Part shown: piece by piece, positions 39,401-40,830 of the stretch
Numbering within the stretch: the first letter of the stretch is position 1
How the letters are laid out: every line of letters begins with the position of its first letter
DNA from: Bacteroidota bacterium
GTDB lineage: Bacteria > Bacteroidota > Bacteroidia > Sphingobacteriales > Sphingobacteriaceae
Reading direction: 5' to 3'
DNA length: 64,000 nt
NCBI GenBank assembly: GCA_013289045.1
Contig: JABDAU010000005.1
Span: forward strand, 1-64,000
Program-made: the position numbers and the translations under genes
Notes under the pieces: model-generated
What the model saw: the letters and a program-made list of their open reading frames with translations, nothing else
Databases searched by the model: none
Told to the model about the DNA's origin: nothing

Positions 39401-39582
39401 GATTCGGTATTTAACTGCAGAGGACGCGGAGTTTGAGTTTCGTGACTTTCTTTGTCTGAACCATGATTAAACGGATTAAAGGATTGCCTTTATGTAAATT
39501 CAATTTTAGAGACAAGATTTTGCATGCTAAAAGAGCAAAAAATCCTCTAATCCTAAAATCAAGCGAATCATGGTTCAGATCC

Positions 39583-39665
39583 GCGTTAGGGATTGCAGCG
39601 GATACCGGCCAAGCGCCTAAGGCCTGTGCAGTATGAGCGTAAAGCCCGGCCGCAGGCAACGCCCT
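39583..39665 (+). repeat. dispersed repeat family C copy; head GCGTTAGGGATTGC is the unoccupied best match to the IS110 guides
   Basis: GCGTTAGGGATTGCAGCGGATACCGGCC...GTATGAGCGTAAAGCCCGGCCGCAGGCAACGCCC. Confidence 0.8.
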
Positions 39666-39734
39666 GAATTAGAGATTAGTGATTGGTGATCAGAGATTAG
39701 GAATGAAAGTTATTGATGAAATATTGAATTTTCG

Positions 39735-39811: not shown

Positions 39812-39848
39812 AGTTTGAAAGTTTTAATCTAAAAACCTATAAAAACAG

Positions 39849-39880
39849 TAAAGCCCCTGATGGGCAGGGGCCTTTACTAA
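39849..39880 (-). terminator. terminator downstream of the two tRNA-like genes
   Basis: Reverse strand GTAAAGGCCCCTGCCCATCAGGGGCTTTACTGTTTTT. Confidence 0.7.
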
Positions 39881-39909: not shown

Positions 39910-40025
39910 CTGTAGGAGAAGGAATCGAACCTCCACAGAGTGGTTATTCTCATTGCTGAGAGTTTCCCATAGTCTCCGCCACCGCGACAAGGAGGTGTGT
40001 CTGCCAAAAATTTCACCATCCTACA
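39910..40025 (-). tRNA. tRNA-like gene 2 (Leu-like D arm, anticodon-loop TTGTCGC, giant variable arm)
   Basis: Acceptor TGTAGGA/TCCTACA; D arm GTG-AAATTTTTGGCAGA-CAC; T arm GGAGG-TTCGATT-CCTTC; discriminator G; no encoded CCA. Confidence 0.65.
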
Positions 40026-40088
40026 TTTTAATAATTCTAAACCCGGTTTTCCCGCACTGTCTTTCAAATGCGGTCGGCTTAGAAATTG

Positions 40089-40201
40089 CTGTTGGGGAAG
40101 GATTCGAACCTCCACAGAGTAGTTAGCCCGCTTCGGGTTTCCTATGCTCTCCGCCACCGGGACAAGGAGGTGTGTCTGCCAAAAAATTTCACCACCCAAC
40201 A
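40089..40201 (-). tRNA. tRNA-like gene 1 (Leu-like D arm, anticodon-loop TTGTCCC, giant variable arm)
   Basis: Acceptor TGTTGGG/CCCAACA; D arm GTG-AAATTTTTTGGCAGA-CAC; T arm GGAGG-TTCGAAT-CCTTC; discriminator G; no encoded CCA. Confidence 0.65.
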
Positions 40202-40353
40202 TTGTTTTTTTCTTTAAAGAACGCTCAGCAATTGTCATTTGCTTAATACAAATCTAAAGCACTATTCATTTTCTTGCAAATATTTCAACGAAATAATTTT
40301 ATTTTTAGTTTTATTTTAATTAAACTTGTATATTAGTATAGAATTTAAAATTT

Positions 40354-40830
40354 ATGTCCCACAGAAAAGCCCAAAATTTAGAAATTGATAATCTTGATAT
40401 ACAGATTTTATCGATTTTAATGAAAAATGCAACTACGCCGTATACGGAAATTGCAAAAGAACTGATCGTTTCGGGCGGAACCATACACGTGAGGATGAAA
40501 AAGCTGGAGGAGATGGGTGTAATTAAAGGTGCCACACTGGAAGTTGATCCTCAGAAGTTAGGTTATGATATTACTGCTTTCCTTGGGATCTATCTCGAAA
40601 AAGGTTCGCAGTATATTGAGGCCGTGAAACAATTAAAAAATGTAAAAGAAATTGTTGAGTTGCATTACACCACCGGCAGCTGGAGCATTTTCGCCAAAAT
40701 TGTGTGCCATGACACGAGTCATCTGCGCGAGATTTTGAACGAACAGATCCAGGGAATTCCCGGCGTACAACGCACAGAAACATTTATTTCGCTTGAAGAA
40801 AGCATCCGCAGGCAAATCACGCTGGAATAA
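40354..40830 (+). CDS. Lrp/AsnC family transcriptional regulator
   Basis: NLDIQILSILMKNATTPYTEIAKELIVSGGTIHVRMKKLEEMGVIKGATLEVDPQKLGYD. Confidence 0.95.
   Translation: MSHRKAQNLEIDNLDIQILSILMKNATTPYTEIAKELIVSGGTIHVRMKKLEEMGVIKGATLEVDPQKLGYDITAFLGIYLEKGSQYIEAVKQLKNVKEIVELHYTTGSWSIFAKIVCHDTSHLREILNEQIQGIPGVQRTETFISLEESIRRQITLE

Follow-up and report, generated by a model that had tools for sequence, protein, structure and literature searches.

Two tandem tRNA-like (TL) elements, TL-B and TL-A, lie 63 bp apart on the minus strand of the window, the 64,000-nucleotide stretch of Bacteroidota DNA analyzed here. An AsnC-type regulator is encoded divergently from them (Table 1). The first-pass annotation of the window had proposed two tandem tRNA-like genes at this site. 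Both are present and match covariance model R1 at 124 and 121 bits, scores from a model whose 21 source sequences include these two.

Table 1. Features of the TL locus, in window positions
Feature	Position	Strand	Remarks
TL-B (5′ tandem member, TGTTGGG...CCCAACAG)	40089..40201	-	cmsearch R1 121.4 bits (in R1 build set)
TL-A (3′ tandem member, TGTAGGA...TCCTACAG)	39910..40025	-	cmsearch R1 124.2 bits (in R1 build set)
TL-B anticodon loop UUGUCCC (GUC 34-36, C37, C38)	40159..40165	-	
TL-A anticodon loop UUGUCGC (GUC 34-36, G37, C38)	39984..39990	-	
TL-B giant variable arm	40114..40153	-	outer and middle helices covary
TL-A giant variable arm	39935..39978	-	covariation
Candidate Bacteroidota-type promoter TTG-N20-TAGATTTG	40249..40279	-	47 nt before TL-B; pattern scan
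Terminator-like hairpin AGUAAAGGCCCCUG...CAGGGGCUUUACU, 3′ of TL-A	39846..39879	-	fold -19.1 kcal/mol, z -2.07
AsnC-type regulator, divergent from TL pair	40354..40830	+	Pfam AsnC_trans_reg; start codon about 153 bp from TL-B

Perfect 7-bp acceptor stems differ between the copies by compensatory changes (TGTAGGA/TCCTACA in TL-A, TGTTGGG/CCCAACA in TL-B). Both copies have a 3-bp D stem (GTG/CAC), a canonical T arm with a 5-bp stem, and a 5-bp anticodon stem (CCTCC/GGTGG) with a central U.U. The mismatch marks the window's lineage, the site being paired in most other families. The variable arms, put at about 40 nt with an inner hairpin, are 40–44 nt long. The TL-B arm comprises a CGGAG/CTCTG outer helix, a bulge, UAG/CUA pairs, a GAAA/CUAA internal loop and a CCCG-AAG-CGGG hairpin. 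The TL-A arm has the same outer helix, followed by UGG/CCA pairs, a GAAA/AUAA internal loop and a TCTCA-GCAA-TGAGA hairpin. The discriminator is G. CCA is not encoded, and its absence is ordinary because nearly all tRNAs of a complete genome from the same genus also lack an encoded CCA. The first-pass annotation had correctly read the acceptor, D, T and anticodon stems, the inner hairpins, the TGG/CCA versus TAG/CTA pairs of the outer helix, the discriminator and the lack of CCA, and had rightly described a Leu-like body with a non-matching anticodon.

Standard tRNA models assign no conventional isotype to the pair. ARAGORN calls nothing in the window TLs, and Rfam RF00005 (tRNA) matches neither with default filters and the curated threshold. 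With lax filters, RF00005 marginally matches TL-A (32.3 bits; cut-off, 29) and does not match TL-B.

A candidate promoter precedes TL-B and a terminator-like hairpin follows TL-A. The candidate promoter fits the Bacteroidota-type consensus, and a pattern scan with that consensus finds it upstream of 32/73 TLs (raw count). Together, the promoter and hairpin would make the TL pair a stand-alone RNA transcription unit. Single-sequence folding is uninformative, with z of about 0. At window positions 39560–39680, the GC-rich GTTAGGGATTGCAGCGGATACCGGCC...GCAACGCCCT looks like a dispersed intergenic repeat.

Distribution and structure of the TL class

A DNA search recovered TL elements, mostly as tandem pairs, from 35/36 same-genus genomes other than the one that holds the window. 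A class-wide search with R1 returned TL matches of 105–200 nt with E values of about 1e-13 or better, distinct from tRNA-Leu-type matches of 72–86 nt. The 220 distinct relatives collected span many Bacteroidia families. Carriers among the matches listed are Mucilaginibacter, Chitinophaga, Niabella, Algoriphagus, Cyclobacterium, Echinicola, Pontibacter, and Neolewinella, together with many Saprospiraceae and Chitinophagaceae records. Multi-copy arrays account for 48/183.

Lewinella sp. W8 carries a five-TL array (L242:6960-7857) in which TLs of a 119-nt and a 177-nt class alternate. Three tandem TLs each are found at G654 C84:4976-5406 and G662 C68:4172-4623; both genomes lack GlnRS, and their family (f114) is listed in the window's phylum and in another class. 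Typical TLs also occur in bins labelled Ignavibacteriales (L165) and Bacteroides (L252), which are probably mislabelled or contaminated. No viral contig contains an exact match to the TL 3′ motif, and a phage or mobile origin was rejected on that basis.

Homologues were collected and a covariance model was built, as the first-pass annotation had suggested. Across 72 distinct natural sequences the paired structure is conserved with compensatory change: 97.8% of cells are paired and 18/28 pairs changed on both sides. Both-side changes number 254 cells versus 65 in shuffles; 0/500 shuffles match and no slid control comes close. Alignment A3 was fitted to a model of the same structure and is biased towards it; alignment A2, made without structure, yields the same covariation result. 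One A2 sequence (G050) had its variable-arm insert trimmed manually ahead of modelling; A3–A5 contain natural sequences only.

Compensatory changes support every TL stem, those of the anticodon and the giant variable arm among them, and covariation backs the RF00005-type cloverleaf with its 7-bp acceptor stem and its D, anticodon, and T stems. Stems in relatives covary rather than degenerate. Anticodon-stem variants are CCCTC/GGGGG, CCCGC/GCGGG, CCGCC/GGCGG, CCAGC/GCTGG, and CCTCC/GGTGG; D-stem variants are GTG/CAC, ATG/CAT, TTG/CAA, and ACG/CGT. A degenerate tRNA-Leu pseudogene was rejected since TL stems covary across families. In Mucilaginibacter TLs (window 39986–39998, CACACCUCCUUGU), the stretch ACACACCUCCUU resembles the anti-Shine-Dalgarno 3′ end of 16S rRNA. 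An anti-Shine-Dalgarno mimic was rejected because the anticodon stem differs elsewhere and the sequence itself is not conserved.

The variable arm is 37–131 nt long (median, 68.5) across the class. Its base also covaries, and its 3′ end is nearly always (C/A)UAA(C), facing a GA-rich strand. Longer arms (L108, L113, L144, L156, and others) contain a conserved module around GGGUUGACCAC, and GUUGACCAC occurs in 45/220 sequences. The TL of genome G094 (L305:1501-1576) has a short variable loop only and is called tRNA-Asp(atc) by ARAGORN; this genome also has AsnA. It would be a TL that has naturally lost its giant arm and retained its identity elements.

Identity nucleotides and decoding features

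Among distinct TLs, G73 is present in 220/220, G2-C71 in 219/219, and U1-A72 in 218/219. U35 and C36 occur in 219/219, C38 in 216/219, and G34 in 209/219 (95%), and the consensus of positions 34–38 over 219 loops is GUCUC. The other 10/219 TLs have C, U, or A at position 34; these exceptions include the loops of L114, L118, L146, L139, L173, L177, L189, L208, and L235. Bacterial Asp identity rests on G73, G10, G34, U35, C36, and C38, and G1-C72 and G2-C71 are conserved in tRNA-Asp (PMC9976931). U1-A72 is used by bacterial amidotransferases (PMC4206432). TLs carry most of the AspRS identity set plus the GatCAB pair U1-A72, without G1-C72 and without G10 as a conserved element. G10 was rejected as a TL identity element, as position 10 varies among A, G, and U in covariation with position 25. 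A tRNA-Leu assignment does not fit, with G73 in place of A73 and a NUC triplet in place of a Leu anticodon. Judged from its sequence, the TL is meaningfully read as an Asp anticodon with G73 and U1-A72, which goes beyond the earlier description of a Leu-like body with a mismatched anticodon.

The pyrimidine at position 37 that the first-pass annotation ascribed to both window copies is found in TL-B (C37) and not in TL-A (G37). Across the class, 200/219 TLs (91%) have a pyrimidine at position 37 and 19/219 a purine, with A37 once. U33 is kept in 179/219 (82%), and G33 or C33 replaces it in 18%. The combination of U33 and purine 37 seen in decoding elongators does not hold across the TL class. 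The ordinary tRNA-Asp of a same-genus complete genome (G011) has G1-C72, U33, A37, and the loop CUGUCAC; tRNA-Asn(GUU) of this genome has U1-A72.

With U33 lost in some TLs and pyrimidine 37 in most, decoding looks abandoned. The Asp identity elements, canonical T arm, and elbow are kept, and the TL is therefore probably charged with an amino acid. The first-pass annotation had left a choice between aminoacylation and a non-translational mimic; the evidence suggests both together and not one or the other. It is highly improbable that the TL takes part in translation, delivering Asp or Asn to GAC/GAU codons either like any other isoacceptor or as a regulated mistranslator. Such a role would account for the frequent GUC anticodon and the U33 that most TLs keep, but not for the substitutions at positions 33 and 37 or the anticodon-stem U.U of one lineage. 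Canonical tRNA-Asp is also present, and Asn at Asp codons would be harmful.

The divergent regulator, co-occurring genes and a proposed function

The best NCBIfam match of the window regulator is AsnC NF008384 (174 bits; Lrp, 63). AsnC is the best family for 6/6 TL-linked regulators tested, at 150–187 bits versus 61–93 for the next best, all below the NF008384 equivalog cut-off of 227 bits. An Lrp/AsnC-family gene lies divergently upstream at 37/60 TL loci. The next-largest neighbor cluster has 5, and the AsnC-type regulator is the sole conserved TL neighbor. In a larger set of partly redundant loci, an AsnC-type gene lies within 600 bp of 108/164 evaluable arrays, always divergent and at a median of 153 bp; about a third of TL arrays are not beside AsnC. 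No other AsnC/Lrp-like open reading frames were found in 1.35 Mb of TL flanks. In E. coli, a gap of 151 bp separates the divergently oriented genes asnC and asnA, and asnA is activated by AsnC in the absence of asparagine (PMC4482635; PMC8707732). A locus swap with asnA or asnB was rejected, as these loci in relatives without TLs have no AsnC neighbor.

Eighty genomes, 50 with TLs (TL+) and 30 without (TL-), were picked for completeness and family spread before these genes were viewed, and GatCAB presence was scored by GatB. GatB was found in 50/50 TL+ and 14/30 TL- genomes, AsnRS in 50/50 and 29/30, and GlnRS in 35/50 and 18/30. Where AsnRS and GlnRS are both present, GatCAB is not needed for translation. 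Among such genomes, GatB was found in 35/35 TL+ versus 2/18 TL- (p=1e-11, overstating independence because genomes are related). AsnB over cut-off was found in 0/50 TL+ versus 10/30 TL- (p=2e-5, with the same overstatement) and AsnA in 3/50 and 3/30. Both AsnA and AsnB over cut-off are lacking in 47/50 TL+ genomes; many TL+ genomes hold weaker, below-cut-off AsnB-like amidotransferases, which might make asparagine.

The cleanest contrasts are within families, as related genomes are not independent. In family f1, TL+ genera have GatB and neither AsnA nor AsnB, while GatB is missing and AsnB present in all three TL- genomes, two of them with AsnA as well. In family f36, TL- genomes lack GatB. 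Genome G421 is an exception to the TL-GatB pattern, having GatB, GlnRS, and AsnRS and no TL. TL absence was rechecked with a better model, R2, and laxer filters; only G094 moved to TL+, and the co-occurrence conclusions were unchanged.

These data quite probably reflect a non-decoding carrier RNA devoted to tRNA-dependent asparagine synthesis, acting through AspRS and then GatCAB under AsnC regulation. AspRS would read G34-U35-C36, C38, G73, and G2-C71 and charge the TL with aspartate. GatCAB would read U1-A72 and amidate Asp-TL to Asn-TL, and hydrolysis of Asn-TL would free asparagine for AsnRS and metabolism. Having lost U33 and purine 37 and bearing the giant arm, Asn-TL would stay off the ribosome and away from Asp codons, and the arm may also scaffold an AspRS-GatCAB complex. 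The divergent regulator would tune TL transcription to asparagine supply, as E. coli AsnC does for asnA. Several findings weigh against this reading: the missing G1-C72 and G10, the variation at position 34, the arrays that are not beside AsnC, genome G421, the three TL+ genomes with AsnA, the weaker AsnB-like amidotransferases, and the asnA and asnB loci of TL- relatives with no AsnC neighbor. With moderate confidence, the class as a whole may be placed out of translation altogether, as a dedicated RNA cofactor of asparagine biosynthesis that has a hybrid identity, is under an asparagine-responsive transcriptional regulator, and replaces asparagine synthetase in much of Bacteroidota.

It is unlikely that the TL is instead an asparagine-controlled regulatory RNA or decoy that binds or reports AspRS and/or GatCAB, its charging being no route to asparagine. 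AsnC linkage, identity nucleotides, and GatB co-occurrence would also fit such an RNA, but it leaves unexplained the TL+ genomes without AsnA and AsnB that keep AsnRS, GlnRS, and GatCAB, and multi-copy arrays suit a carrier better. Donation of Asp or Asn to other products, as in lipid, cell-wall, or peptide aminoacylation, is improbable. The non-decoding features and a Leu-like body that can adopt a tRNA fold would be compatible with it; no transferase or other enzyme is a conserved neighbor, however, and the dependence on GatB indicates amidation.

All 36/36 TL+ genomes tested have a single AspRS above cut-off (read in two pieces in G049); Deinococcus and Thermus differ in AspRS number. Read from single residues such as His31, a marker of the discriminating type, the AspRS sequences are compatible with either specificity. 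If the TL+ AspRS also accepts tRNA-Asn, another RNA with U1-A72, asparagine synthesis could dispense with the TL. Synthesis by a non-discriminating AspRS on tRNA-Asn has been proposed for 18 genera (PMC4206432). That such an enzyme makes asparagine on ordinary tRNA-Asn, with the TL serving an unrelated function, is doubtful. The single AspRS and U1-A72 of tRNA-Asn(GUU) agree with that proposal, yet TL-GatB co-occurrence and C36 (not U36) in TLs are left unexplained, and within the window's family AspRS shows no apparent difference between TL+ and TL- genomes.

In G047, one of two TL- GatB+ exceptions among genomes with AsnRS and GlnRS, GatB is fused to a bacterial-type AspRS directly after GatA (L302:3004-6318). 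The fusion contains GatB_N, GatB_Yqey, OB fold, tRNA-synt_2, and GAD domains, and the genome also holds a second, ordinary AspRS. The fusion is apparently a one-polypeptide Asp-to-Asn transamidosome, and it again ties GatCAB to aspartate.

Relation to known systems

Bacterial tRNA-Asp(GUC) shares G73, G2-C71, G34-U35-C36, and C38 with the TL and has G1-C72, whereas the TL has U1-A72, a class II Leu-like body, pyrimidine 37, and a giant arm. Class II tRNA-Leu shares the D-arm AAATTGGCAGA, A15-U48, and a long variable arm, and R1 cross-matches it; it differs in A73, as against G73, an Asp triplet, and the 37–131-nt variable arm of the TL. Dedicated non-translational tRNAs are exemplified by the Staphylococcus non-proteinogenic tRNA-Gly that serves cell-wall peptides, which differs from the TL in amino acid, product, and structure. 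Allo-tRNA and selC* tRNA are likewise non-canonical bacterial tRNAs with long variable arms (PMC7609411). They have 8/4 and 9/3 acceptor/T stems and translate, whereas the TL is 7/5 (rows segmented); their review makes no mention of Bacteroidota (PMC7609411).

tRNA-dependent asparagine synthesis and non-translational tRNAs are each already known. No earlier description of a dedicated, non-decoding, regulator-linked tRNA class of hybrid identity was found in the open-access literature searched. TLs are a new, easily recognized RNA family missed by standard annotation, and they offer a natural setting in which to study identity-element recognition by AspRS and GatCAB. If the proposal is true, a protein amino acid is made on an RNA that exists solely for that purpose, and RNA-bound metabolism is detached from the ribosome.

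The E. coli asnC-asnA locus resembles the TL locus in its AsnC-type regulator divergent from an asparagine-making gene and in its spacing (151 versus about 153 bp). The regulated gene is a synthetase in E. coli and an RNA here. The tRNA-Asn route of Deinococcus, Thermus, and Bdellovibrio (non-discriminating AspRS and GatCAB) shares GatCAB, U1-A72, and a setting of genomes with AsnRS and GlnRS and no asparagine synthetase (PMC4206432). Its carrier is an ordinary decoding tRNA-Asn and it needs a non-discriminating AspRS, whereas the TL appears unable to decode and, given its Asp triplet, could be served by a discriminating AspRS. A survey noted some Bacteroidetes without asparagine synthetase that keep GatCAB even though they possess AsnRS and GlnRS (PMC4206432); the TL, if it acts as proposed, would explain them.
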